A DNA stretch of 64,000 bases from an uncultured Bacilli bacterium (GTDB taxonomy: Bacteria; Bacillota_I; Bacilli_A; RFN20; CAG-449). Every line of letters starts with the position of its first letter. Within the stretch, counting starts at the first letter, position 1. The notes below the pieces were generated by a model, which saw only the letters and a program-made list of their open reading frames with translations, had not been told where the DNA came from and did no database searches. The stretch covers positions 1-64,000 of the forward strand of contig CANRPC010000004.1 of assembly GCA_947632435.1 (NCBI GenBank). Reading direction: 5' to 3'. This document shows positions 23,423 to 44,981 of this stretch, piece after piece. A program made the position numbers and the translations under genes.

Positions 23423-23692
23423 TTAGTACTTATAAACTAACTTATACTCAATAAATTTTCCTTCTTTTGAAAAAGCTCCTAAACGTATTATGCTATTAAT
23501 TGCTTCTTCAATAATTTTTTTGTTTTCTTCATCAGAAAGTTGATCTGAAGTATTTGTAATACTTGCTAAACGAGCACAAGTATTGTAACCTTCTTTTAAA
23601 TCAAAACAATTCCAATTATACCAATCATCGAATGGATCATATGGATTGTCTTCGGTAGTTAACCGTACTTCCTTATAGTCTTTTTGCTTCAT
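23423..23692 (-). CDS. Small phage protein downstream of the RNA-polymerase-like gene
   Basis: 89 residues. DPFDDWYNWNCFDLKEGYNTCARLASI followed by SDEENKKIIEEAI is a pattern I associate with short genes near phage terminases; function unknown. The ATG overlaps the stop of the preceding gene by four bases and has TGGAGGA upstream, so it is translationally coupled to the RNA-polymerase-like gene and may work with it. Confidence 0.65.
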   Translation of the reverse strand: MKQKDYKEVRLTTEDNPYDPFDDWYNWNCFDLKEGYNTCARLASITNTSDQLSDEENKKIIEEAINSIIRLGAFSKEGKFIEYKLVYKY

Positions 23693-26600
23693 TGTACAAT
23701 TCCTCCAGATAAATACTTGAGAATAGTTGAAGATGATACTCCTAAACGTGTTGCAATTTCAGCAGTTGTATGTCCATTTGCTTTTAAATTTTTAATTCTA
23801 TTTACTTTTGCTGCACTTAAAATTGAACCTTGTTTTCTAGGTGTTGCTAATTGCCTTAGTCTTTTGCTATCACAATATGGTATCATTGCTGCAAACATAG
23901 ATTTAGATATTGCACCCGCTTGAATTGCTGCCCATTCTCTATCAGTAAAATAAATTTCACGTCGATGTGCCCCAACTTTTTCTCTAGCTTTAGCCAATTC
24001 TTTTTGTTTTATTTTCTTTAAATCATCTTTATCAAGAATAGGATTTTCTTGAACAATGGCTTTAACTGCAGAATTTGTTAATAGTTGTGCCCTTCTCTCC
24101 CTTGGTTTATTTGATAAAGCTTCATTATATTTTTCTTTAATTGATGCTACTTCATCTTGAAATTCTTCTTTAGCTTGAGGTGAATATATAGTACCCTCAG
24201 TATGGAGAGCTTCTAATCTCGCCTCGTTTGCTAGAGTTTTCATACGATTAGCATAATTAGCATATGCTTGTTCTTGAGGAGTTCCTGAAGAAAGCATTCT
24301 TGCATCTTTTGCTTCAGCCATTTTAGTAGAATCCTGGGTGGCAATTTTTACTTTAATAGTTGATGGATCAACTTGAACATATTCCCCACTTTCATCTTTA
24401 AAATAATATTTTCCATCCTTAGCTATAGCATTTGCTACTACTTTTTTTCCCTTAGAATTTACATACTCTGTTTTATAATATTTGCGATTAGTATCATGAT
24501 ATAACTTTTCTCCTGTTTTAGGATTAACATAAAGCGTAATTACATCTTTTCTGTTAAATACTTCACCCGTTTTGTCATTAACATAAATATTATTATCTTC
24601 ATCAAATAGTCTTACTTCAGTTTTTCCATCACGTAAAAAGAATGCACCTTCTTTTCTTTCGTTGATAACTACTTTAGATTTTGCTTTAGAAATTAAAGTT
24701 GAAGCTCCACCATATCGTCCATTCTCTTTAGCTTGGTATTTCTTTTTTAATTCTGCAATATTATTATCAATTTCTGATTGTTTATAATCTAACTTATGTT
24801 TTTCGGCATCAATAACGACCATTGAGTGTTTAACAGCTCTAGCTAATTCAGATCTTGTTGCTCCTCCTAATGTCATATCTGTAATTAAATTTGAAATTAC
24901 ACCCATTTCTGTTTGGGTATTATTCATAATTTTAAATTCCTTACCTCCACGAAAATAATGTTCTTCACCATTTTTATCTACAACACATTTATCATATTGG
25001 TAAGATAATTTTGTATCAAATCCAACTAATTCTTGTAAAGGTTCACTATTTTTAATTTGTACATTTTCATTTAATGGTATTACCATTACAGTATCTCCAT
25101 CAAAATCTGCTCCAGATAAACGATCTGCCACAGCTTTACTTATACCAATTGCATCAGTAGGATTTTTGCTCATTACTTTTACACCTTCTGGATTTCGATT
25201 ATTAACTGATAAAATCGGTATTTCAAATGTTCCACCATGAGGATATCTTATTAATGCTACTTTAGTACCATCACCAAAATTTGGAGCATATACTTCATTA
25301 TCTTTTATGGTAGTTAATGGTAATATTACTTGATATCTTTGCCCTGGTAAAGGAACCGCTTTTAATTGAACAGCCGCAGCATCACAATCCTCAGCATATG
25401 ATTCTAGTAGAGATTTTCTCAAAGTTGGATTTGTTAATGACTTTATTTCATTAAACTCATCTTCTCTTTCTTGTATGGATAAATTTAATTGTTTATTAAT
25501 TAATTTTAAAGGTTGTTTTGCTAAAAACTGAGACGATAATGTATCAGCCCAAGCTGACCAATCACCTTCTTCAGCTCTTTTATTAATTAGTGAAAGTTTT
25601 TTCTCACCATTTTCATCTATATAATATGATTGTCCACCATGCTCTTTAATTAATGATCCAAAAGGATTCTCAGGATCTTTTTTAATGTTTTTATCAATAC
25701 TTTTTAAAACTTCTAGTTTGCTTTTATCAGAAGTTTTATTGGTATTAAAAATTACATCTACACCTTCTGGAAAGCTTTTGTCATCTCCATAAACTGCCAT
25801 TCCTTTAATAAAATGAGTATTATCTACAAGAATACGAACTTGTGCATAATTAACTCCTTCACCTAAATTTAAATCTTTGCAACCCCTTCTTATTTCAATA
25901 ATTCCATCTTTATTAATACCACCGTCTTCGGCATATCTAATTTTTAAACGTTTTGAATCCATAGATGCTGGATATTGAAAGCTTTTTTCAAAGGTGTCAC
26001 CATTATCATAAGAAATATAATCATTTAATGTTTTAACATCTTCAAAATTAAAAATATTTTTATGAGGAGTTCCAGGTTTTGCTAAAACTTTTATTGTTGT
26101 ATATTTACCAGCATTTGTAACTTGTGGAACACGACCTCCCCAAACTTCATAACCTTCCATTCTAAGCATTTCAACTGCGGTATTAAACTTTTCTGGAGAA
26201 ATTCCTAATTCACGTTCAACACCTTTTCCAATATCAACCATACCTTTTTGGTCAACAATCTTTTTTAAATTTTCTGATGTTTTTTCACAAATTTTCATTC
26301 TTGCTTCAGAATCCGCATTTAACAAAGAACGTACTGTAGATTCTCCTTTTAAACCTAATTTATCCGCAATTTGAGGATTAGATAAACCATCTTGTTTTAA
26401 TGATTTACATTTCGCTACTAAATCACTTCTTCTTTGATGTACAGCAATTGTATGAGCTGCTCTTAATTGAGTTGTTGATAATTCCATTACTTCTGCGATT
26501 TCTTTTTCTGCTAAACCTTCTTTTTTTAGTGATTCATAACGCGAAAGCCAATCACCAGAATGTTGATAAGGATTATCTCCAGATCCCCAAGGATATCTTC

Positions 26601-26760
26601 CAGATCTTCTTGGCATTCCATAATGTTTTAGAAATGTTTCATAATCAACAGGATCTTTATCTGAATATAATTCTTCTGGATAAATACCAGTGTGTTTTAA
26701 TTCTTCATAATTTTCAGCATAATCATTATATTCATAAAATAAATATAAATCGTCATCCAT
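23689..26760 (-). CDS. Two-barrel RNA-polymerase-like protein with DFDGD motif
   Basis: 1023 residues. Seen: an N-terminal tag-like HYGMPRRSGRYPWGSGDNP (46-64); two helix-turn-helix-like repeats (about 75-105, 113-146); a barrel-like segment FIKGMAVY...FPEGVDVIFN (317-339); then ALIRYPHGGTFEIPIL (502-517) and RLSGADFDGDTVMVIPL (547-563), whose D552, D554 and D556 match the metal-binding motif of RNA polymerase beta-prime (NADFDGDQMAVHVPL); a basic middle; and a C-terminal helix-turn-helix (985-1017). Known: the same motif in a single chain occurs in YonO of phage SPbeta and in crAss-like phage polymerases. Inferred: a phage DNA-dependent RNA polymerase. It sits between replication and packaging genes. 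Activity is unproven. Confidence 0.75.
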   Translation of the reverse strand: MDDDLYLFYEYNDYAENYEELKHTGIYPEELYSDKDPVDYETFLKHYGMPRRSGRYPWGSGDNPYQHSGDWLSRYESLKKEGLAEKEIAEVMELSTTQLRAAHTIAVHQRRSDLVAKCKSLKQDGLSNPQIADKLGLKGESTVRSLLNADSEARMKICEKTSENLKKIVDQKGMVDIGKGVERELGISPEKFNTAVEMLRMEGYEVWGGRVPQVTNAGKYTTIKVLAKPGTPHKNIFNFEDVKTLNDYISYDNGDTFEKSFQYPASMDSKRLKIRYAEDGGINKDGIIEIRRGCKDLNLGEGVNYAQVRILVDNTHFIKGMAVYGDDKSFPEGVDVIFNTNKTSDKSKLEVLKSIDKNIKKDPENPFGSLIKEHGGQSYYIDENGEKKLSLINKRAEEGDWSAWADTLSSQFLAKQPLKLINKQLNLSIQEREDEFNEIKSLTNPTLRKSLLESYAEDCDAAAVQLKAVPLPGQRYQVILPLTTIKDNEVYAPNFGDGTKVALIRYPHGGTFEIPILSVNNRNPEGVKVMSKNPTDAIGISKAVADRLSGADFDGDTVMVIPLNENVQIKNSEPLQELVGFDTKLSYQYDKCVVDKNGEEHYFRGGKEFKIMNNTQTEMGVISNLITDMTLGGATRSELARAVKHSMVVIDAEKHKLDYKQSEIDNNIAELKKKYQAKENGRYGGASTLISKAKSKVVINERKEGAFFLRDGKTEVRLFDEDNNIYVNDKTGEVFNRKDVITLYVNPKTGEKLYHDTNRKYYKTEYVNSKGKKVVANAIAKDGKYYFKDESGEYVQVDPSTIKVKIATQDSTKMAEAKDARMLSSGTPQEQAYANYANRMKTLANEARLEALHTEGTIYSPQAKEEFQDEVASIKEKYNEALSNKPRERRAQLLTNSAVKAIVQENPILDKDDLKKIKQKELAKAREKVGAHRREIYFTDREWAAIQAGAISKSMFAAMIPYCDSKRLRQLATPRKQGSILSAAKVNRIKNLKANGHTTAEIATRLGVSSSTILKYLSGGIVQ

Positions 26761-26763
26761 ATG

Positions 26764-27399
26764 TTAACTCCTCTCTATAATTGATTTAACAAGATTTGAT
26801 TTTGTAACAATTAAATCCATTATTTCTTTTATCTCTCCAGGTTCTGGAATTAATTTTAATGTTTCATGATTTTGATAAATCCGTAATTCAGTAGTGTATT
26901 TATAAGGATCTTGTTTATACTCCAAAAAGAAAAGAGCAGCATATATCATAGGTTGATTAAAAGAAGCTTGAGTTTTTCCATTTTTATAATCACTTATTCT
27001 TAAAATATTATTTTTTTCATCAACACTAATGGCATCTGTTGTTCCAAAACAAAAATCGTTATAATATAAAATGACTTCACTAGACATTCTAAAGCCAATA
27101 GAATCATTCACAAAAGGTATAAGATTTTCTAAAATATCATCGGCATCAAAAGCATCATAAGGAATAAAATTTTTATATAAAAAGTATTCTATAAGATGTT
27201 TATCTCTGCTATGAAGTTTCATACGTGATTTAATACAATCACTAGCTAACTGATGTATACAAGTTCCTATTTCAGCGGCATATTGACTATAAAATCTTTT
27301 AATTAAAGTTTCATTATCCCAATTGAGCCAATGATATCCACTTGCACTTAAAAAAGCATGCGTTCCTTTTAATTTTTCATGGTTATTCCAAATTATCAT
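26764..27399 (-). CDS. RecB-like PD-(D/E)XK exonuclease (Cas4/DUF2800-like)
   Basis: 211 residues with the RecB-nuclease order: AEIGTCIHQLASD (motif with His), CFGTTDAISVD (Asp), LRISDYKNGK (D-x-K), and QPMIYAALFFLEY (Q-x-x-x-Y). Metal-dependent DNA exonucleases of this kind are regular members of Firmicutes prophage replication cassettes. The gene overlaps the VRR-NUC gene by 17 bases and has AAGGAG upstream. Confidence 0.85.
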   Translation of the reverse strand: MIIWNNHEKLKGTHAFLSASGYHWLNWDNETLIKRFYSQYAAEIGTCIHQLASDCIKSRMKLHSRDKHLIEYFLYKNFIPYDAFDADDILENLIPFVNDSIGFRMSSEVILYYNDFCFGTTDAISVDEKNNILRISDYKNGKTQASFNQPMIYAALFFLEYKQDPYKYTTELRIYQNHETLKLIPEPGEIKEIMDLIVTKSNLVKSIIERS

Positions 27400-27736
27400 T
27401 ATTTATGTTCTCCTTATTTAAAAATTGTTGATTAAAAAATACACGCATTTCTTCAATTACATCTTCCATGTTTTCTGGATATATAAAACGACCAAAAGAA
27501 AGAGAATTTGCCAAATTAATATAATAATCTTGATTAGGACGATGTGACGAATTTTTACTTGCTTTGCATTCTAACATTGCCCATGATTTATAATAAATTA
27601 TTGTTAAATCAGGTATCCCCTGTAGATAATTAGGATCATTTTTAAGAATAATGCATTTATGAAAAATTTCTTTTAATCGTTTAATTAAAACTGATTGAAA
27701 TTCACTTTCTAATTTTTTTTCAATAATATTTTTCAT
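27383..27736 (-). CDS. VRR-NUC domain nuclease
   Basis: 117 residues, close to a minimal VRR-NUC domain. N-terminal Glu helix (ESEFQSVLIKRLKE), then LQGIPDLTIIYYKSWAMLECKASKNS with the catalytic D and E-x-K, and a Q-x-x-Y (NQDYYINL). Such phage enzymes act on branched or structured DNA. No Shine-Dalgarno is visible before the ATG; instead a U-rich stretch closing a long hairpin lies there, suggesting an RNA control element. Confidence 0.85.
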   Translation of the reverse strand: MKNIIEKKLESEFQSVLIKRLKEIFHKCIILKNDPNYLQGIPDLTIIYYKSWAMLECKASKNSSHRPNQDYYINLANSLSFGRFIYPENMEDVIEEMRVFFNQQFLNKENINNDNLE

Positions 27737-28200: not shown

Positions 28201-28674
28201 TTATGCTTTTTCTAATAAAATAAAAGGTGGATCATTATCTTTTTGATGAAAATATTTATGTATAATACTAAACTTAATTTTAAAACCAACTAGGGGTTCT
28301 AAAACGCATATAAATGTATTTGCATATACATTAAATGCATAATTAAAATTAACATCATTTCGATCTTGATAAATATATATTGGTAAATATGTTATCGAAT
28401 TAAAATAAGTAATTACATCTTTTAAAGATAAAATTGTATTTGTATATTTTTTGAATGTTTTTAATTGTTGTTCATTGATTACAAAATCATACATACTATG
28501 TTTCATTGCAATTAATAATTTTTTATCAATTAGTTGTTCATTAGTAATCTCATTTTTACCATCATGCAAAAATAAATATGTATTATTATTATTTATATTA
28601 TCAATTAAATTTCCATAACTATCTTTTAAATATTTTGGATATGAATAAATGTTTACTTTTTCGTATTCAGTCAT
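28201..28674 (-). CDS. Conserved-position hypothetical protein of replication cassette
   Basis: 157 residues, mixed alpha/beta, rich in Asn, Tyr and Ile. No motif recognised. The ATG overlaps the helicase stop (ATGA) and has TGGAGGA upstream, so it is co-translated with the helicase. Ends in a T-rich, repeat-bearing non-coding region. Confidence 0.6.
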   Translation of the reverse strand: MTEYEKVNIYSYPKYLKDSYGNLIDNINNNNTYLFLHDGKNEITNEQLIDKKLLIAMKHSMYDFVINEQQLKTFKKYTNTILSLKDVITYFNSITYLPIYIYQDRNDVNFNYAFNVYANTFICVLEPLVGFKIKFSIIHKYFHQKDNDPPFILLEKA

Positions 28675-29996
28675 ATAATTTCCTCCAGTATTTTATTTTT
28701 TTTATTAATTATTAAAGGTGCATAATCTTTATTATTAAAATTCTTTTTTTGCTTAAGTTTTTGATTAATTCTAATATCAATTTTAGATTTTGAAATTAAT
28801 ATATAATAATACAAATCTTGAAATGGTGTATTAAGTCTATCAATACGTCCCATAGCTTGATGCATAACTTTGTATGAATGATTTAATGAATAAAATATTA
28901 TTGTGTCTGTTTGGATACAATTCCATCCTTCACATCCAGCTGTATATTCAACTAAATATACCCATTTTGTTGTATTAAGTATTTCTTGATGTTTTTGACC
29001 ATTCCATTCTGAAAAAGGATAATTTGCATTCACTAAAAGTTTTCTTAATAATTCCAATTCATAATTAAATGAATAAAATATTATTACTTTTGGATGATTT
29101 GCAAGAATATCAAGAACCGCGTTTAAGCGTGTGATATCTGAATTTACTAATTTTCTTAATGTAAAACAGAATTCGCTTGCATTTTTAATTGGCTCATTTG
29201 TATAAATGTTCCAATGAGTACTATTTATTTGTTTATATTTATAAATATCATATTCAACAGATACATAACATGCATGTTTTATTGTTTTTCTTTCAAAATG
29301 CATATCAATTAGAATATCATTTCTATGTTTGATTAAAATGCCTTCATTAAAATATTTTTTTATACAAGGGTAAGGTGTATGGGTAGACCATATAATATGT
29401 TGATTACTAAAATCAGTTTTATTTTTATAAAAACCATTAGCAATAAACACAGGAATATAATCACTCCATGTATCGCCAGGTGTAGCTGATAATAATATCC
29501 ATTTATTATTTTTTGCTATTTTTAAAAATGATTTAACCCATACACCATAACCAACTAATCTTTGTTCATCTAATATAAAAAAAGCATTAGAAATATCTAT
29601 GTATTTTTTAATATTATTCCATGAGTCAATTATTATCTTGTTTTTAAAAAAATTACATTCCGAATTAGAAGACATACCAAACTTTGCTAATTCGTAATCC
29701 CATGTGTGACTATCACGATTTTTTGCAGTTGTAATAATATATAAATCACAAAGTTTTTTAATTGGAAAAGATATAAGTTTATTACTTTTTTTATCAGTAT
29801 CAACATCAAAAAATTCATGTTTTATATAAATACCTTTTTTGTTCTTTTTTATGTAAAAAACTTTTCCGCCTTGTGATTTATAATAATATGCAATGGCAGT
29901 CCTTGACTTACCAGAACCGACATCACCATTCAAAATGCAACCGTTTTTCATTTTTTTTAATGCGTCAGCCTGGTAGTCAAATAAAAGTTCTGCCAT
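28671..29996 (-). CDS. SNF2-like superfamily 2 helicase
   Basis: 441 residues. N-terminal Q-like LFDYQADAL, motif I LNGDVGSGKSRT (~23-33), motif II FILDEQRLVG (DEQR in place of the usual DEAH), motif III WILLSATPGDTWSDY, then motif V LVEYTAGCEGWNC and motif VI HQAMGRIDRLN with the arginine finger. These phage SNF2-type ATPases travel with VRR-NUC nuclease, SSB-like and polymerase genes in Firmicutes prophages and act on DNA in replication or recombination. It starts six bases after the SSB-like gene. Confidence 0.88.
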   Translation of the reverse strand: MAELLFDYQADALKKMKNGCILNGDVGSGKSRTAIAYYYKSQGGKVFYIKKNKKGIYIKHEFFDVDTDKKSNKLISFPIKKLCDLYIITTAKNRDSHTWDYELAKFGMSSNSECNFFKNKIIIDSWNNIKKYIDISNAFFILDEQRLVGYGVWVKSFLKIAKNNKWILLSATPGDTWSDYIPVFIANGFYKNKTDFSNQHIIWSTHTPYPCIKKYFNEGILIKHRNDILIDMHFERKTIKHACYVSVEYDIYKYKQINSTHWNIYTNEPIKNASEFCFTLRKLVNSDITRLNAVLDILANHPKVIIFYSFNYELELLRKLLVNANYPFSEWNGQKHQEILNTTKWVYLVEYTAGCEGWNCIQTDTIIFYSLNHSYKVMHQAMGRIDRLNTPFQDLYYYILISKSKIDIRINQKLKQKKNFNNKDYAPLIINKKNKILEEII

Positions 29997-30001
29997 TTTT
30001 A

Positions 30002-30568
30002 TTAAAACGTATCTTCTTCTATTTTATTTAGTGCTTCGTCTGCTTCTTCATATTCAGCATAATATCCACCGTATAAATCGGAAGGTCTAAGCACTACTCT
30101 TAAATCATCTAAATATGCACTTGTTCTTGCCTTATCAAGCACAACAGTATGAAATAATTTAAATGTTAAATCAACTCTTTCAAAGGATGCAAAATCTAAA
30201 GATCCTAATGTTTCTGCAGTTAATACCTTTTTATATTTTGTTCCGTCCAATTTAGTACCGTATGTAGCTATTGTTGGTGGATATTCAGAATTAAGATTTA
30301 CTTTAATAGTAATGTATTTTAAACTATCCTCTGATGATTCTCCATCACGAATTCTTTCTTTTACATTTAAGCCTTCTTCTAATAATCGATCTGCTGCTTC
30401 TGTTGTTAAACATAAACAAAAGTTTCGATTGCCTTCACGATTAAAATCAGTTTTTCTTCCTGAAAAGTTTTTATACATGATAACTGCATTACGTACAGTT
30501 ATTCTTTTTCCTATTTTTTCAAATTCACTATTTGCAATAGCATCTTTAATGTTAGAATAATTTGCCAT
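30002..30568 (-). CDS. Phage ssDNA-binding-like protein (DUF2815-like)
   Basis: 188 residues starting MANYSNIKDAIANSEFEKIG; the start is fixed by AGGAGGAAATTATAAA immediately upstream. NFSGRKTDFNREGNRNFCL and the beta-rich KYITIKVNLNSEYPPTI and DLTFKLFHTVVLDKARTSAYLDDLRVV segments look like an OB-fold protein of the DUF2815 type, with an acidic C-terminal tail (EEADEALNKIEEDTF), as in single-strand-binding proteins that recruit partners. It lies between the polymerase fusion and the helicase. Confidence 0.65.
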   Translation of the reverse strand: MANYSNIKDAIANSEFEKIGKRITVRNAVIMYKNFSGRKTDFNREGNRNFCLCLTTEAADRLLEEGLNVKERIRDGESSEDSLKYITIKVNLNSEYPPTIATYGTKLDGTKYKKVLTAETLGSLDFASFERVDLTFKLFHTVVLDKARTSAYLDDLRVVLRPSDLYGGYYAEYEEADEALNKIEEDTF

Positions 30569-30627
30569 TTTATAATTTCCTCCTATTATTCTTTTTTTTT
30601 TAAATATCATTATTCTAAAGAGCAAAT

Positions 30628-33600
30628 TTAATCATCACTAGTAAATTGCTCATAATCTCCATATTTGTTAATTGTTTCAATTGCTTCATTAACAAAATTA
30701 TCAAAGTAAGATAAATCAATATCATTTTCTTTATTAAAAAGTTTTACATCTTCTGATTCTAACCATCTATATCCAGATGCATCATTAACAGAATCATATT
30801 TAATGCTTCCGTCTTTGTTATATGCTTTTCTCAAAAGTAATCCACCATTACATCCAGGTTTAATTGGACAAAATGAACCAACTTTTCCTACAAATTTCAT
30901 AGCATGACCTTCTTTTATTTTTTCATCTATTTCGTTATCTGTAAGATCAGAATATGATTGCAACATCATTTCTTCTTTTTTGGTAAATTTTGTTTCATTA
31001 TTCTTTTTACGTAAGCGAATACTTTTTAATTTTTCATAAATTGTTACATCTGGTTTATTTTCATTTAAATCAAGATATATTGCCGTACGCACTTCTTTTG
31101 TTATACATAAATCACTAAATTCAATTGACTCTTTTGTAAAACATTTTTTATAGACGTAAGGCATTTGAAATTGTGCTCCAGTTGCTGTCCATTTGCCAGC
31201 TTCCTCGCCAAATTTTACTTTTGCAATATAAACTGATTTATTTACAAGACATAAACGTTCATAAGTTGCTTCATGTTCAAATTCATAACCATATTTTTTA
31301 GCAAATTCCATACAAAAATTCTTAATATCGTCTGTCATATTTGGAATCTTAATAGAATCTGTTTTAATATGTGCTACTTCAAAACCTCTTGATTTAACTT
31401 CATCTTCTAATGTTCTCATAAATAAAGCGCCTCTTAAAGCAACAATATTGTTAACATTTCGTGGATCTTTAAAAGGATTATCAAAATTTGCACAAGTTAA
31501 CCCATAAACGGAATTTATAGGAATTTTTAAGGCTTTTGACAATCTCTTTGCTTTTGTAGCATCAGTTAAATATTTTTTTAATTTTCCACCAAACAATTTA
31601 CCAACAGATTCAAAATCACCATGCTTAATATAAACTCTAGCATCAACTAAATTTTTATAATTTATGGTATAATCACCAAAGAAATTTAATGCAATAGCAC
31701 TATGTGGATGCATTGAAACAATATCAAGTAATCCAACATTACTATACATTCCAGGGGTAGCATCAACAAAACCACCAGAGCCTAAATCAGTTCCTCGATA
31801 CATATTTACATAACTAACCGATCCATTAGCACCAACACATTTTTTGTATTCATATCCAGGAAATTCCTTAGATAAATCTGTATATACTAATTGAGGGTGC
31901 TTTTCATTACCAAATATCAATTTAGTTGTAATACTATTTGTTGTATCATTCACAGTCATATCTGCTATATCCGCTAATATTTCTCTAGCTAAAAAATCTT
32001 CTTGCGTCGCTTTCCAAACTGCTTCTGTAGAAAGTACATCATTATCACAATATTCAGCAACTTCTATCCATTTTTCTTCGGGTATAGGTTTATCCCATTC
32101 ATATCCTAATTCTTTATGATGTAAACCTAATTCAATTTCCCATTTTTTTAAGGATTTTTTATCGCTTGAATAATCGTAAATATCTGTGTAGGACAAGTTA
32201 TAAGCGGCACCAAAAGTCCCTTTGCGCTCATTTATTATTGATTGTGATAAAATAAATAATTGTTCACAAGAATATCCTAAATGTTTAGCATAAATCATGT
32301 GATTATCATAACTTCTATTATTAAATCCAACTAACCTATATTTAAATAAAGTTTCTATTTCTGCAGCACTTGGATTAATCATTCTATTAACTCCAGGAAC
32401 ATCTAATATTTTCCAATTTACAAGAAATAAATTTGGGAATGACTCCACATCAAAAAATACAATTGGTGCTTCATCATTATTTATAAATTCTGCATTTTCT
32501 TCGGATTTAAATTTCATCATCATGACTTTTTTTATACATTTTTCAGATTGATGTGTACTTGCTGCTGCAAAATTTAATATTGCATCATACATATTTGTCA
32601 CATCGTATTTAATTCCACTATTATAAGCTTCTTCTAAATCATTATAAATATAATTTATAGACACTGTTGTCGAGCCATATTTTTTATGTAAGTTTTCTAA
32701 AATTCTATTACGTAAATGTTTATCATCTTGAATAGTTTGTGTACTAATCACTTTTCGTTCTCCTTTAAAAGGTAATCCAGATGATATGGTATTAATTTCT
32801 TCAGAATTACATTTTGTTAATTTTCTTCTAAGAGAACTATTACCAGTAAATATCTTTATTTCAATATCATCTGCATATAATCTATTAAGCTTCTTAATAT
32901 CGCCGTTATAAATATAATGCAAGTGAATACCTGCACCAGATTTGCTTAATTCAGCATATGTTTTAGGAAATTTTGAAGCTTCTTTAAGATTTAATTCGTA
33001 AGATTTATTGCCTTGTTCATCTTTTAAATCAAAATCTATGACTATATGATTTTCAGGCAATTTTAAGTAATGTAATTCATTACTGGAAATATCTTTTAAT
33101 GTTGTAGTAACATCAGACCATTTTTTTATTGGTGTACCACCTTCATTGGCATATTGTGCTGGATAATCTTTGCATAAAATATCAAGTTTAGAAGGTTGTA
33201 CTTTAAAATCTATCATTTCATTTATTACATTATTTGTTTTATTACTTTTAATCAGTTTTTGCTTTTCAAACAATTCTTTTTTAAAACCTGAATAGTAATG
33301 CCTAACATAATCGTCACCAACATGTTTCCGCTCATCATAATCTCGAAAATAATCTTTTAATTCTGTTTTAAACATGCTTTTACTATATGGAAATTTTACT
33401 TTGGAATCTTCACAATATTGTTTATACATATCCCAAGCTGATTTTAATGTTGTTCCATCTTCATGACTAAAAACAATATAACAATCATCAATAAAATTGA
33501 AGAAATCATTAGATTCTTCCATCATTCCCATCGGTTTATAATCATCAAATATTTCGGGATTATTTTCATATACTTTTTTACATTTATATGCTATATGTCC

Positions 33601-34560
33601 CAGTTCAAATTTGACTTGTTCTTTTAGGAACAAATATCTATCTTTAGGAATAATATTTCCACTTGGATGTACATCAATAAGTCTTCTCATAAGTCCAGAT
33701 TTTCCATCTGTAATTTTTACATATTTATTACTTGCAACAATTAAAAAAGTTGAAAACTCTCTATAATATAAAGATTTATGTTTTTCATTAACTGTCATTT
33801 CTTCATGAGATACAATTGAGTTTATTGTTTCATTTTTTTCTATTTTTGATAAATCACCATCAAAATTAAACGCTACTAATGGATTTTTCTTAAATTGTTC
33901 TAAAGCAAATTGATTTGAAGATGATCCTAATGAAGATGCATTAAATACTGAATAATATCCTTTAAATAACATTTGGATAATTTTTAATATTGTACCTTTA
34001 CCTGCTCCTGGTGCACCATATAACACTAAAAATTTTTCAATGTATTTTGAAGCCCCAGTAACAATTGCACCAATTGACCATTCAATTTTTAGACGTTCTT
34101 CTTCAGAATATAAAGTTGAAATAAGTTCATCCCATGCATCACATTTTCCTTCTTCAAGAGCATAAGGAAGATGTTGACTAGAATAATCTTCTTTGGTTGT
34201 TTTTTGATTTAAAAATACTAATGAATTATCTAGATTTTTAAAATTATTACACATTTGTTTTTTGCAATAATTATGCCACTTATCAATATATCCAGTTTCA
34301 GCATCCCAAAGATGCATTATTTTAAAATGTTCATCAAACGTTCTATTTTTTTCTTTTGCATATTTATCTAATTCAAAATCAATCAATCGAATTGCATCTT
34401 GCTCATCAGTAGACCATCTATTTTGTTCTTCATCCCAAATAGCATAAAAATCATTTGATTTAATCATGAGGTCATTACTTTTACAAATTATAAATCTTGG
34501 ATAGATTTCCACAACACCATATTTTAAACTCCGTTCAGATATCATTAAGAAATCTAACAT
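30628..34560 (-). CDS. Replicative fusion: SF3/D5 helicase, AEP-type primase, family B DNA polymerase
   Basis: About 1310 residues in one frame (an in-frame TTG lies two codons upstream; AGGAGG serves either). Rough domains: 85-330, D5-like SF3 helicase with Walker A LYGAPGAGKGT (~182-192), Walker B AFNFDGD and sensor LIVASNK; ~455-600, archaeo-eukaryotic-primase-like core with VIDFDLKD, SGAGIHLHYIY and IEIKIFTGN; ~700-850, 3'-5' exonuclease (FFDVESFP, VGFNNRSYDNHM, YCDNDVLST); ~940-1150, polymerase with motif A LLDIVSMHPHSAI, motif B KIPINSVYG and motif C HIKTDSIKI. Motif C has K-T-D instead of D-T-D. This would unwind, prime and copy phage DNA as one protein. The domain order, helicase first, is unusual. 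Confidence 0.88.
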   Translation of the reverse strand: MLDFLMISERSLKYGVVEIYPRFIICKSNDLMIKSNDFYAIWDEEQNRWSTDEQDAIRLIDFELDKYAKEKNRTFDEHFKIMHLWDAETGYIDKWHNYCKKQMCNNFKNLDNSLVFLNQKTTKEDYSSQHLPYALEEGKCDAWDELISTLYSEEERLKIEWSIGAIVTGASKYIEKFLVLYGAPGAGKGTILKIIQMLFKGYYSVFNASSLGSSSNQFALEQFKKNPLVAFNFDGDLSKIEKNETINSIVSHEEMTVNEKHKSLYYREFSTFLIVASNKYVKITDGKSGLMRRLIDVHPSGNIIPKDRYLFLKEQVKFELGHIAYKCKKVYENNPEIFDDYKPMGMMEESNDFFNFIDDCYIVFSHEDGTTLKSAWDMYKQYCEDSKVKFPYSKSMFKTELKDYFRDYDERKHVGDDYVRHYYSGFKKELFEKQKLIKSNKTNNVINEMIDFKVQPSKLDILCKDYPAQYANEGGTPIKKWSDVTTTLKDISSNELHYLKLPENHIVIDFDLKDEQGNKSYELNLKEASKFPKTYAELSKSGAGIHLHYIYNGDIKKLNRLYADDIEIKIFTGNSSLRRKLTKCNSEEINTISSGLPFKGERKVISTQTIQDDKHLRNRILENLHKKYGSTTVSINYIYNDLEEAYNSGIKYDVTNMYDAILNFAAASTHQSEKCIKKVMMMKFKSEENAEFINNDEAPIVFFDVESFPNLFLVNWKILDVPGVNRMINPSAAEIETLFKYRLVGFNNRSYDNHMIYAKHLGYSCEQLFILSQSIINERKGTFGAAYNLSYTDIYDYSSDKKSLKKWEIELGLHHKELGYEWDKPIPEEKWIEVAEYCDNDVLSTEAVWKATQEDFLAREILADIADMTVNDTTNSITTKLIFGNEKHPQLVYTDLSKEFPGYEYKKCVGANGSVSYVNMYRGTDLGSGGFVDATPGMYSNVGLLDIVSMHPHSAIALNFFGDYTINYKNLVDARVYIKHGDFESVGKLFGGKLKKYLTDATKAKRLSKALKIPINSVYGLTCANFDNPFKDPRNVNNIVALRGALFMRTLEDEVKSRGFEVAHIKTDSIKIPNMTDDIKNFCMEFAKKYGYEFEHEATYERLCLVNKSVYIAKVKFGEEAGKWTATGAQFQMPYVYKKCFTKESIEFSDLCITKEVRTAIYLDLNENKPDVTIYEKLKSIRLRKKNNETKFTKKEEMMLQSYSDLTDNEIDEKIKEGHAMKFVGKVGSFCPIKPGCNGGLLLRKAYNKDGSIKYDSVNDASGYRWLESEDVKLFNKENDIDLSYFDNFVNEAIETINKYGDYEQFTSDD

Positions 34561-34575
34561 TTTCAATTTGACCTC

Positions 34576-36243: not shown

Positions 36244-37239
36244 TTAACATTTTACATACGACATAAATGTTTTTTTGTGATTACCTTTTTTATCGTAACC
36301 ACCTGTAAGAATATCTCCATCTGGATTAAATTCTAGAACCATTCCAGGATTTCCACTACGAATAATTTCACGTGCTCTATATGAATAAGAACCATCAGGA
36401 TTTGTTAAACCAAATGAAACACGATTAGCACGAGTTGAATCTTCTGGATCATAAATCCATCCTATTACTTTTGCTTGTTGTCTTTGTCTAACTGTTAACC
36501 AACCCATTTGATAACCTAATGTTTCCCATACATCTTCCATAAATAAATATCCTTGAATCTTCAATTTCATGGTCAATGAACTTTCTTTGGCAATTAATAA
36601 ATCTAAATTATAATTAACGTTTTCTACAAATCCAGGAATTGTTTCATCAAACATTGCGATAAAATCTCCAGGAATAGGTTTTTCTTCTAATGTTGAAATT
36701 TCTTCTAATTCTCCAGTATCTTTATTAAGAACTTGTTTCTTTGTTTCTTTTAATCCTTTTACAATTTCGTCATCTACTGCTTCACCATATTTTTCTTTTA
36801 TTCTATTTCTATATGTAGAATATCCAGCTTTAACTGATGCATAAGCAGCTGCTAACGCCGCATTTCGATTTGCCATTATGTTATGGTTACCAATCGTTGA
36901 AGCAACTGAACAAGCATATAATAATATTGTTGGTGCATAAATTTTTAATATTTTTCCGCTTGATTTAGCCAAAGTTTTTATTATACAATTGCGTGCAGTT
37001 GTTTTATTTATTTTTCTTTTTTCATCATTATATAAATCATTTATATCACTAATTTTATTTTTAGTTTCTTCAATTACTGGCATAGCTTTATGACTTGCAA
37101 CTGAAGCAGTTACAATAGCAATACCACTAGCGGCAATACTTGTTATTGTTAGTATTGTTGGTAAATTCTTTCTAACAAAATATAATAATCCGCTTTTGAA
37201 TCTAATTCTTGAAATCATTTTGTTTATTATTTTATCCAT
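36244..37239 (-). CDS. DUF6353-like membrane protein, paralogue A
   Basis: 331 residues. N-terminal half has two hydrophobic blocks (LPTILTITSIAASGIAIV and LKIYAPTILLYACSVASTIG) followed by NIMANRNAALAAAYASVKAGYSTYRNRIKEKYGEAVDDEIVKG; the C-terminal half is soluble, ending with Gly-rich lines (GNPGMVLEFNPDGDI). The RNAALAAAYA/YRN signature is that of DUF6353 phage membrane proteins. Two further paralogues lie upstream. Role unknown; TGGAGGA precedes the start. Confidence 0.75.
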   Translation of the reverse strand: MDKIINKMISRIRFKSGLLYFVRKNLPTILTITSIAASGIAIVTASVASHKAMPVIEETKNKISDINDLYNDEKRKINKTTARNCIIKTLAKSSGKILKIYAPTILLYACSVASTIGNHNIMANRNAALAAAYASVKAGYSTYRNRIKEKYGEAVDDEIVKGLKETKKQVLNKDTGELEEISTLEEKPIPGDFIAMFDETIPGFVENVNYNLDLLIAKESSLTMKLKIQGYLFMEDVWETLGYQMGWLTVRQRQQAKVIGWIYDPEDSTRANRVSFGLTNPDGSYSYRAREIIRSGNPGMVLEFNPDGDILTGGYDKKGNHKKTFMSYVKC

Positions 37240-38362: not shown

Positions 38363-39112
38363 TTACATATTTTTTATATCGCCTAATTTTAAATTTATTT
38401 CGTAAGTTAAGCATGGCTTATCATTAGGTGCAATACATGAATCTAAATATCCATCTAGTAATGTCCCACCTACAATTTGCCAACCAACATCGCTTCCATT
38501 AAACGAATCTTGTAATCCTAATTCTTCTAAATATCTATTTAAAGAAATTATTCCATTATCGTTTAATGCATAAGAATTTAATTTGTTAATAGCTTTACAA
38601 ATATCATTCCATGTTGATTGGAAATAAGCACCAGTGATAGGCTCTTTAAACAAATGTTTGGAATCGTCTGATAAAATTATTTCTTTAGAACCAGACTTTT
38701 CTTCAATTTTCTTATTTGTGTTTTGTGTAATTTGTTTTTCTTTTTCATCATCTAAAACTTTTTTAGTTTGATTTCGATATTCATTAAATGCAGATTCTGT
38801 TAATGCACATGTTGTTGCAAGAGTAATGTTTCTTTTTGCATATATTCTATTACTTGCAATTATGCATACTGTTGAACCTAAAAAGCCTAAAACAGGTGGA
38901 ATATAATACTTCCAACAAAGTTTAACTTTTTCTTTTTTTGTCAGTTTTTTTTCAGTTGAATAACGTTCTATTTGTTTGACTGATTTAAGAGTGGCTTTAC
39001 TAAGTTCAATTGAAGTTAATACAAAACCTATTAAACCTGTTCCTGTCAAACATTCTGGTTCATGATCCAGTAACCAATTTTGAATATTATCGATAAAGAA
39101 TTTCTTCATCAT
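38363..39112 (-). CDS. DUF6353-like membrane protein, paralogue B
   Basis: 249 residues. Same layout as the other two paralogues: hydrophobic TGLIGFVLTSIEL and PPVLGFLGSTVCIIASNRIYAKRNITLATTCALTESAFNEYRNQTKK, then a soluble C-terminal domain with NRYLEELGLQDSF and DVGWQIVGG. It overlaps the upstream paralogue by 26 bases, suggesting tandem duplication within one operon. Confidence 0.7.
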   Translation of the reverse strand: MMKKFFIDNIQNWLLDHEPECLTGTGLIGFVLTSIELSKATLKSVKQIERYSTEKKLTKKEKVKLCWKYYIPPVLGFLGSTVCIIASNRIYAKRNITLATTCALTESAFNEYRNQTKKVLDDEKEKQITQNTNKKIEEKSGSKEIILSDDSKHLFKEPITGAYFQSTWNDICKAINKLNSYALNDNGIISLNRYLEELGLQDSFNGSDVGWQIVGGTLLDGYLDSCIAPNDKPCLTYEINLKLGDIKNM

Positions 39113-39989
39113 TTAAAAATCCTTTCTTTATAAAATCTTCTTTTTTTCCGTCAAAATATTCTTCTGAAGATATGTTTTTAGAAATATAATCGGTATATCT
39201 TTCTGGATTGTAGATTGGCTCTTCGTGAAATTCTATTATTGTGTAACCATTTCTCTTTTTAAGTGATTCATTTTTGATATCTGTTATTTTATTGGAATCT
39301 ATAAATGAAACATAAACCCAACTAGATCCATACATATCCATCAAGTAATCTAAATCCCAGCCAAATTTAAGGTCATCTATATCAAAATCATTACGATCTA
39401 ATAATTCTGCTTTAGCGTCTAATAAAAAATCTTTGATTGTTACCAAAAATGGTTGTGAACAACATAAACCATCTACAGTTCCACAGGATATTCTTTCGTT
39501 TAATTGATTTACCGCTAACAACACATCTTTTTCATACGCTTTAAAAAATCCAGCATGTAGTTCCCAATATAATTTTTTACCATCTTCTATTGGTGTATTT
39601 TTTAATTCATTTTTAGCATCATCTTCTGCGATTGATTTCAATATTTCATCATTTTTTGCTTTACCAATAACTGTTTTTACTTTATTTTCGTATTTTTTCC
39701 ATCCTGCAGATAACATACCTGCTGTTGCAATTAATGACATTTCATTCTTTTTGCTAATAATTGTTGAACTTACTGTTGCTGCAATGGTTAAACTAGCAGT
39801 TATCATGGTTCTCCAATATGCTTTACAAAAATTTTTAGTAATTTCAATTTTATTTTTGCCTTCGTTTGAAATATTTCTTTTACTTTTATTTTGACTATCT
39901 TTAGCCGAAATAAATGCTGTTGAAATAACTCCAACAGAACTAAAAATTGATAAAATAATTGGCAAATGTAATCGTAATTTTGTATTCAT
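39087..39989 (-). CDS. DUF6353-like membrane protein, paralogue C
   Basis: 300 residues from MNTKLRLHLPIILSIFS, the start set by AGGAGG. Two hydrophobic blocks (PIILSIFSSVGVISTAF; TMITASLTIAATVSSTII) and the family-like SLIATAGMLSAGWKKYENKVK, then a soluble domain (RNDFDIDDLKFGWDLDYLMDMYG). More diverged than paralogues A and B. Confidence 0.65.
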   Translation of the reverse strand: MNTKLRLHLPIILSIFSSVGVISTAFISAKDSQNKSKRNISNEGKNKIEITKNFCKAYWRTMITASLTIAATVSSTIISKKNEMSLIATAGMLSAGWKKYENKVKTVIGKAKNDEILKSIAEDDAKNELKNTPIEDGKKLYWELHAGFFKAYEKDVLLAVNQLNERISCGTVDGLCCSQPFLVTIKDFLLDAKAELLDRNDFDIDDLKFGWDLDYLMDMYGSSWVYVSFIDSNKITDIKNESLKKRNGYTIIEFHEEPIYNPERYTDYISKNISSEEYFDGKKEDFIKKGFLNDEEILYR

Positions 39990-40003
39990 TATTTTTTTTC
40001 CTC

Positions 40004-40345
40004 CTAACATTTTTTTAAATAATTTAATAATTTAGTATAAATTTTTATTTTCATATATATTGACATTTTTTCTTTTTGTAATTTGGCATTTTCTAAATCT
40101 GTATATAAAAAGATTATTTCCACTATACATTCATCAATCGGATCAATCGGATCATAAAAATATAAAGATGAATTTAAAATATTATAAATTTGATCAGATA
40201 TTTCTTTTGCTACTTGCCTCCCAACTAAATTCATCCGTTTAATAATTCCGTTGTTTAATTTTAAATTAGAAAAATAATCATGCATTACAAAATTTTGATC
40301 AATATAATTTAAGGCGAGTAAGAATTTTTTATAGTTATCATCCAT
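40004..40345 (-). CDS. Hypothetical accessory protein
   Basis: 113 residues, all-helical by eye (FLLALNYIDQNFVMHDYFSNL...), strong AAGGAG before the ATG. No motif recognised. It heads the operon of DUF6353 paralogues C and B. Confidence 0.55.
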   Translation of the reverse strand: MDDNYKKFLLALNYIDQNFVMHDYFSNLKLNNGIIKRMNLVGRQVAKEISDQIYNILNSSLYFYDPIDPIDECIVEIIFLYTDLENAKLQKEKMSIYMKIKIYTKLLNYLKKC

Positions 40346-43805: not shown

Positions 43806-44981
43806 ATGTTAATTAATTGTGGAGAATGTGGCAAACAAATTTCAGACAAGGCAGTAATGTGCCCACATTGTGGATATCCTATTGGTTCTAATTTAAAAAA
43901 AATAAAAGTGAAAGCACACAAAAGATTACCAAATGGCTTTGGTCAAATAACAAAAGTCACCTATCATAATTTAAATAAGCCATATAGAGTGATGACTACA
44001 ATTGGAGTTAATGAAAAAGGAAAGCCAATAGTCAAATTATTAGAACCAGTCGCTTATTTTAAAACATATAATGAAGCCTATGAGGCTTTGTTAAATTATA
44101 ATAAATTAAAAAATAATTCGGGTTCACAGATAAATATGACTATGAATGATTTGTATGAAAAGTGGATTAAAAATAACTTTGATCAAAATATAAATAAAAA
44201 AACGCTTGTGATTTATAGATCAAATTGGAATATTTGTAAAGACTTACATGATGTTCAAATATCATCTTTAACAGTAATCAAATTAAAGGAATTTATTGAA
44301 AATCTTAATACCACTTCTGGTCAAAAAATTCGTATAAGAAATATGTTATCAACAATGTTAAAATATGCAATTTCTCTTGATTTAATAGATAAAAATATTG
44401 CTAGTAACATTATATTGCCAATTGAAATTAAGATGGATAGTAAAAATAAATATCGTGGTCATGAAAGTTTTACATTAGAAGAAATGAAAATATTATGGAA
44501 TAATACAGACAATAAAATTGTTAAATTAATATTAGTTCAATGTTTTATGGGATGGCGACCAACAGAATTATGTAGTTTACGCAAAGAAAATATTAATATA
44601 AACGATATGATTATTACTGCTGGTGTCAAAACGGAAAGTGGCAAAAATAGATCAGTACCTATTCATCCATTAATTCAAAATTTTGTGATTGAAATATATA
44701 ATGATCTTTGTAATAGAAATACTGCTTTGATGTTTTATATTACTTATCGTTCGTACTTTATTCAAATATTAAAAAAAATTGGTATTAAAAATAATCATAA
44801 ACCACACGATTGTCGTGTGACTTTTATTACAAATTGTAAAACTAATGGAGTTGAAGAATATAGCATAAAACGTTTTGCAGGTCATAAAATTCAAGACATT
44901 ACAGAATCCGTATATACAAAGCATGATATAAAATGGTTTAAAAATGAAATTAATAAACTAAAAAAATATGTTTATGAATAA
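43806..44981 (+). CDS. int: Tyrosine integrase with N-terminal zinc ribbon
   Basis: 391 residues. Residues 1-28 are a zinc ribbon (NCGECGKQISDKAVMCPHCGYPIG), then an arm-binding region, a SAM-like core-binding domain (~115-210) and a catalytic domain with GWRPTELCSLRKENI (Arg), KTESGKNR (Lys), KPHDCRVTF (H-x-x-R), FAGHKIQD (His) and SVYTKHDIKW (Tyr nucleophile). It integrates and excises the prophage. The only rightward prophage gene; GAGG lies 9 bases before the ATG. Confidence 0.93.
   Translation: MLINCGECGKQISDKAVMCPHCGYPIGSNLKKIKVKAHKRLPNGFGQITKVTYHNLNKPYRVMTTIGVNEKGKPIVKLLEPVAYFKTYNEAYEALLNYNKLKNNSGSQINMTMNDLYEKWIKNNFDQNINKKTLVIYRSNWNICKDLHDVQISSLTVIKLKEFIENLNTTSGQKIRIRNMLSTMLKYAISLDLIDKNIASNIILPIEIKMDSKNKYRGHESFTLEEMKILWNNTDNKIVKLILVQCFMGWRPTELCSLRKENININDMIITAGVKTESGKNRSVPIHPLIQNFVIEIYNDLCNRNTALMFYITYRSYFIQILKKIGIKNNHKPHDCRVTFITNCKTNGVEEYSIKRFAGHKIQDITESVYTKHDIKWFKNEINKLKKYVYE

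Follow-up and report, generated by a model that had tools for sequence, protein, structure and literature searches.

The subject of this study is a single minus-strand gene in a 64,000-nucleotide stretch of DNA (hereafter, the window; positions 1 to 64,000 of contig CANRPC010000004.1, assembly GCA_947632435.1) from an uncultured Bacilli bacterium. The window is the start of one contig in a 1.68-Mb draft genome of 42 contigs. The gene product combines a helicase, a primase, a 3'-5' exonuclease and a family B DNA polymerase (PolB) in one chain. By analogy to GP55 of lactococcal phage 1706, the protein was assigned as the replicase of a tailed-phage prophage, a GP55 homologue of the HelPrimPolB group that most likely works as GP55 does; a probability of about 93% was given to this reading. 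It is based on a full-length match to PHROG 4210, the identity to GP55, the conservation of the active sites, the predicted folds, and a gene set common with phage 1706.

The fused gene and its likeness to GP55

The frame at 30628-34566 is open from a TTG codon at 34566 to the stop at 30628, and it comprises 1312 amino acids without internal stops. The alternative start, an ATG at 34560, would yield 1310 residues and matches the frame of the initial annotation (30628-34560). An AGGAGG sequence is located 5 nucleotides before the TTG and 11 nucleotides before the ATG, and either start is possible; all residues were numbered from the TTG. From the N- to the C-terminus, the order of the parts is SF3/D5 helicase, AEP primase, small helical domain, 3'-5' exonuclease and PolB. 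The initial annotation had listed motifs of these enzymes in that order within one frame of ca. 1310 codons, and all were located between residues 184 and 1071: GAPGAGKGT (184-192) for the helicase; VIDFDLKD (509-516), SGAGIHLHYIY (543-553) and IEIKIFTGN (568-576) for the primase; FFDVESF (704-710) and YCDNDVLST (839-847) for the exonuclease; and DIVSMHPHS (948-956), NSVYG (1018-1022) and KTDS (1068-1071) for the PolB.

Above the cut-off, Pfam recognized only the helicase part (DUF5906, residues 182-295), and Pox_D5 fell below it. The phage family PHROG 4210, whose annotation is DNA polymerase, matched residues 4-1311 with 1743 bits. Since this profile spans nearly the full chain, the fusion itself is a catalogued family. 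When the whole chain was searched against PDB sequences, nothing below E 0.016 was returned.

GP55 was purified by Zhang et al. (2025), who described it as a “four-in-one replicase” (PMC12205980). DNA polymerase, 3'-5' exonuclease, UTP/dTTP-dependent helicase and RNA primase activities were shown; the protein forms a dimer, prefers the priming site 5'-CCAAC-3', and replicated M13 single-stranded DNA de novo in vitro over the whole 7.2-kb single strand (PMC12205980). Its helical domain (aHD) was essential for priming, its strand displacement was largely dependent on the helicase domain, and more than 1000 homologues were reported (PMC12205980). Activities were lost in mutants of K189 (helicase), Y655 and F667 (primase), D712/E714 (exonuclease) and D949 (polymerase), and D509A was used as a primase-deficient mutant (PMC12205980).

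The window replicase and GP55 are 38% identical over 1333 alignment columns (840 bits). By part, the identity was 30% in the helicase, 55% in the primase, 35% in the aHD, 47% in the exonuclease, 47% in the polymerase, and 18% in the tail (residues 1171-1312). All seven of the mapped GP55 residues (K189, D509, Y655, F667, D712, E714 and D949) are identical in the window replicase, with Y655/F667 corresponding to Y654/F666 and D712/E714 to D706/E708. The two proteins are therefore alike in domain order, in end-to-end homology, in the seven mutated residues and in the accompanying genes, but the host of the window copy is another bacterium, in which the gene lies in an integrated prophage, and its activities are predicted.

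Active-site conservation was examined in an alignment of 96 sequences (the window replicase, 80 viral loci, loci L003 and L004, three copies from the related genome G075, and ten phage records). Thirty-three motif sites were inspected, chosen from PMC12205980 and from general knowledge of the families. Twenty-six of them, from all four active sites, were identical in every sequence. These included K190 of Walker A; D511, D513, H548 and E569 of the AEP domain; D706, E708, D754 and D843 of the exonuclease; and D948, K1014, Y1021 and D1070 of the polymerase. D236 of Walker B was D in 94 sequences and E in two. At the variable sites, the window residue was found in 90 (D238), 86 (S543), 95 (F666) and 95 (S951) sequences; N750 was found in 30, with mostly C elsewhere. 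K1110 had been guessed to be the lysine of the canonical KxY motif, but K was present in only 6 of the 96, and the guess is thus probably wrong. Given the PHROG 4210 score and the 26 invariant sites, the motif set is far beyond chance.

The usual form of PolB motif C is DTD. The corresponding sequence in the window replicase is KTDS, and its K, T and D are each invariant over the alignment. Motifs A and B are separated by 66 residues (64-81 over all 96 sequences). Polymerases of the phi29 type feature large TPR insertions between these motifs, and the spacing in the window replicase is about half that of phi29; the short spacing suggests that large insertions of this type are absent. Such a polymerase would fit the helicase-dependent strand displacement of GP55.

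In the passages of Kazlauskas et al. (2020) that deal with it, the HelPrimPolB group is named for its domain organization (a PolB fused to an SF3 helicase and a PrimPol), a 2016 paper is cited for the fusion, and polymerase motif C is described as deviating (PMC7544198). The window replicase likewise has an SF3 helicase and a PrimPol N-terminal to the PolB, along with the unusual KTDS, and it differed from the group as described in those passages in none of the features tested, the comparison having been made without a PolB group tree. The placement of the helicase before the primase, which the initial annotation had considered to be unusual, is in fact the signature for which the group is named in those passages. 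The novelty thereby implied is unsupported, as the architecture was named earlier and a member has already been tested biochemically. In the passages of PMC11348598 and PMC5862659 on this subject, a helicase-primase-PolB fusion is not mentioned.

Two segments were modeled using AlphaFold: residues 455-700 (with 77 relatives) and residues 690-1312 (with 39 relatives). The mean predicted local distance difference test score (pLDDT) of the former was 85.2, and its predicted template modeling score (pTM) was 0.60. Foldseek returned ten PDB matches for it with E ≤ 0.001, all of them PrimPols of plasmid pRN1 (ORF904) or phage NrS-1. The best match upon realignment was the NrS-1 PrimPol (Z 9.9, root-mean-square deviation 3.4, 142 residues, 14% identity, model residues 2-149). 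The view that the middle segment folds as an AEP primase is thus borne out by a confident prediction, and the initial annotation, which had named a different fold of this segment as grounds for refutation, passes its own test. Four helices follow the AEP fold at the aHD position, as judged with no superposition on GP55 itself. The likeness to the NrS-1 PrimPol is in the AEP catalytic fold; the sequence identity is low, and the window replicase has the four helices in place of a helix bundle. The NrS-1 PrimPol is without a family B polymerase domain (PMC12205980). In PrimPols of the NrS-1/ORF904 type, the primase is N-terminal and there is no separate PolB, whereas the primase of the window replicase is located between the helicase and the PolB.

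The model of residues 690-1312 (m6788d9c23529) had a pLDDT of 92.4 and a pTM of 0.86. It matched DNA polymerase alpha and the KOD and RB69 polymerases with Z of 13-14.5 across model residues 1-618, and the C-terminal segment is accordingly predicted to be a complete family B polymerase fold. The 50 listed fold matches were polymerases of the primed-template type; the absence of the phi29 type from this list excludes nothing.

Homologues and integrity of the fusion

A search of 50,697 phage records yielded 379 matches, 252 of which covered at least 80% of the replicase in one place. The best match was in the isolated Faecalibacterium phage FP_oengus (MG711463, annotated helicase/polymerase), with 54% identity over 100% of the protein. 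Its helicase, exonuclease and RNA polymerase neighbours are also homologous to those in the window; its host is different, and its C-terminal tail is longer. The next matches were many Arthrobacter, Gordonia and Streptomyces phages (ca. 40-47%), most of them annotated “DNA primase/polymerase”. The other 127 matches covered less than 80%, and those listed included stand-alone PolBs (Enterococcus and Lactococcus phages), putative primases of Lactococcus phages, and similar proteins.

At least 552 relatives were confirmed among 600 candidates in a scan of viral contigs, and a scan of bacterial and archaeal genomes gave 138 loci with relatives of the replicase. Twelve of 98 related genomes (own genome included) matched PHROG 4210; the match was full-length only in the own genome and in G075, and partial in the other ten. 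Because 4 of 14 control genomes were also matched, partial matches to this profile mean little. G075 harbors three replicase genes, each full-length and distinct from the others, on separate contigs (L096, L108 and L109), perhaps from three different prophages or phages.

A search for split homologues, as had been proposed in the initial annotation, found mostly intact genes. In the set of viral and relative loci, a single frame spans the protein in all 85 (on the opposite strand in L108 and L109); among the genome loci, taken as the best 80 of the 138, this holds for 73. Both sets were the best-scoring ones and are therefore biased towards intact copies. In five genome loci (L158, L162, L167, L171 and L183), the match is partial and runs up against an edge of the locus. 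The remaining two are L181, with a frame change near residue 963, and L176, in which two other genes separate the exonuclease part from the polymerase part.

In L176 (9007-13744; Clostridia bacterium MS499-75), a Bro-N gene and a gene for a NUMOD/I-HmuI-like endonuclease are inserted in the variable exonuclease-polymerase loop. The polymerase part begins at its own ATG and ends early, near the contig end, and a tandem repeat of a ca. 64-base stretch lies close to the junction. This locus may represent a replicase that naturally consists of two chains, a gene that has been broken, or an error of the assembly. Rfam scans of the window and of the L176 stretch gave zero matches. Two further loci have an additional fragment upstream of an intact replicase. 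In Streptomyces phage Scarif, it is a second small gene (L007:1983-2426), annotated DNA polymerase, whose product matches the helicase part (24% over residues 144-336). The fragment at L051:4970-5159 shares 64% identity with residues 508-560, which hold primase motifs A-B, and resembles a partial duplication.

Prophage setting and neighbouring genes

Tail, head and packaging genes are located at ca. 6-21 kb of the window, followed by the replication genes and a tyrosine integrase (Table 1); from ca. 45137 onwards the genes are of host type (pseudouridine synthase, DegV, serine hydroxymethyltransferase). The element carrying the replicase is a tailed-phage prophage with its left end beyond the contig start. 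No attachment-site (att) repeat was found; the DNA to the right of the integrase is single-copy in the genome, and the contig start hides the left end of the prophage. Five neighbours of the replicase match genes of phage 1706, and thus the whole replication and transcription set is common to the two, beyond the fused gene alone.

Table 1. Coordinates of the replicase gene, its parts and neighbouring genes in the window
Feature	Position	Strand	Basis
Replicase gene (helicase-primase-exonuclease-family B polymerase)	30628..34566	-	1312 aa from TTG, 1310 aa from ATG
SF3/D5-type helicase region, residues ~1-440	33247..34566	-	Pfam DUF5906; Walker A K190, Walker B D236, N280, R294/R295
AEP (PriS-like) primase domain, residues ~455-607	32746..33204	-	AlphaFold model; D511, D513, H548, E569
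Helical domain (aHD of GP55), residues ~611-686	32509..32736	-	Four helices in model; Y654, F666
3'-5' exonuclease region, residues ~701-870	31957..32466	-	D706, E708, D754, D843; GP55 mapping and model
Family B polymerase region, residues ~871-1312	30631..31956	-	Model; D948, K1014, N1018, Y1021, D1070
ssDNA-binding/annealing protein, counterpart of phage 1706 gp66	30002..30625	-	Pfam Phage_ssDNA_bind 9.6e-29; 28% to gp66, 2e-11
SF2-type helicase, counterpart of phage 1706 gp67	28671..29996	-	PHROG 62; 37% to gp67, 3e-97
Small nuclease, counterpart of phage 1706 gp68	27383..27736	-	PHROG 93 endonuclease; 44% to gp68
Exonuclease, DUF2800/PD-(D/E)XK kind, counterpart of phage 1706 gp69	26764..27399	-	PHROG 3953; 36% to gp69
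Single-chain RNA polymerase, DFDGD at residue 552, counterpart of phage 1706 gp75	23689..26760	-	PHROG 4291; 37% to gp75, 561 bits
Tyrosine integrase, right end of prophage	43806..44981	+	Pfam Phage_integrase, PHROG 1

The RNA polymerase (1023 residues, with a C-terminal helix-turn-helix) is probably of the YonO kind; the name given to it in PHROGs is “RNA-dependent RNA polymerase”. It is also homologous to the “putative RNA polymerase” of FP_oengus, and it accompanies the replicase in both of the compared phages. Two DUF6353 proteins are encoded in the early region (36244-37239 and 39087-40010, minus strand), and both match PHROG 2152, a family with no function attached; the former resembles gp51 of phage 1706 and the product of the gene upstream of the FP_oengus replicase.

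Proposed action, alternatives and meaning

The mechanism proposed for the window replicase is transferred from GP55 and has good support from homology. Like GP55, the protein would possess all four activities, form dimers, unwind DNA with UTP or dTTP, and lay RNA primers at a preferred site. The N-terminal SF3 helicase would open the duplex and give strand displacement, and the AEP domain with its helical partner would lay short RNA primers. These would be extended as DNA by the C-terminal PolB and proofread by the 3'-5' exonuclease, while the SSB-like (single-stranded DNA-binding) protein of the prophage would coat the opened strand. The suggestion in the initial annotation that one protein might form a minimal replisome holds to the extent that the homologue GP55 has all four activities in one chain (PMC12205980). 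The word “minimal” must be limited, as the genes beside that of the replicase, here as in phage 1706, code for an SSB-like protein, another helicase, two nucleases and a single-chain RNA polymerase.

Several observations weigh against a complete transfer of the GP55 mechanism. At 30% (helicase) and 18% (tail) identity, the nucleotide preference, the priming site and the oligomeric state may differ from those of GP55, and part of the replication machinery may be of host origin. Also, CCAAC is without clear enrichment in the prophage or in the examined part of phage 1706. It occurs 78 times in the window, compared to a mean of 49.9 in dinucleotide shuffles. On the plus strand of the prophage (window 1-43700, the strand opposite the phage genes), 49 occurrences were found vs. 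35.9 expected (24th of 884 5-mers), and synonymous shuffles gave 32.1 ± 4.2 (maximum 44 of 200) vs. 41 observed. Over the 80 viral loci, the strand opposite the gene had 1161 vs. 1014.5 expected and the gene strand 482 vs. 552.2; in the examined part of phage 1706 (L005), the deviation was in the opposite direction (28 vs. 34.9). The stricter controls weakened the shuffle-based excess, and a priming-site bias is not claimed. It is conceivable, if unlikely, that the gut-bacterium branch that includes the window replicase differs functionally from GP55; the helicase and tail, far more diverged than the primase and polymerase, would be in keeping with this notion, and the slight CCAAC excess opposite the genes would fit strand-biased priming.

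With the genome in a draft state (42 contigs), one could suspect that separate genes for helicase, primase and polymerase were joined by an error of assembly or reading frame, but nothing specific to the replicase gene points that way. The same single chain over at least 80% of its length in 252 of the 379 phage records (isolated phages included), and one frame in the viral, relative and genome loci enumerated above, where five of the seven exceptions are locus-edge partials, rule out such an artefact for all practical purposes; FP_oengus has the same protein from end to end. It is quite improbable that the chain is real but at least one domain is dead, leaving only a polymerase or only a helicase-primase. 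Leaving the tail aside, the identity to GP55 is lowest in the helicase part, and the activities of the window copy are predicted ones; however, the catalytic residues of all four enzymes (K1014 among them) are invariant in the 96 sequences, and D236 is replaced only by E, in two.

Equally improbable is that the prophage uses the protein for lesion bypass or repair, with a host polymerase replicating the genome. Among the scanned prophage genes (not every open reading frame was scanned), neither a DnaB-type loader nor a sliding clamp turned up, which could be read in favor of this view. However, GP55 carries out de novo replication of a whole single strand of 7.2 kb in vitro, and phage 1706 has no DNA-replication-related protein besides GP55 and an SSB, its second helicase resembling RNA helicases (PMC12205980); the same arrangement is found in the window.

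A GP55-like replicase thus remains the most likely identity of the protein. The picture of how DNA replication can be organized is unchanged, because the work on GP55 had already taken that step in 2025 and the fused architecture was known even earlier. Taken together, sequence, predicted fold and neighbourhood confirm that prophages of gut bacteria widely carry an all-in-one replicase of a biochemically proven kind, and the results obtained with GP55 can be carried over, as hypotheses, to the replicases of these prophages.

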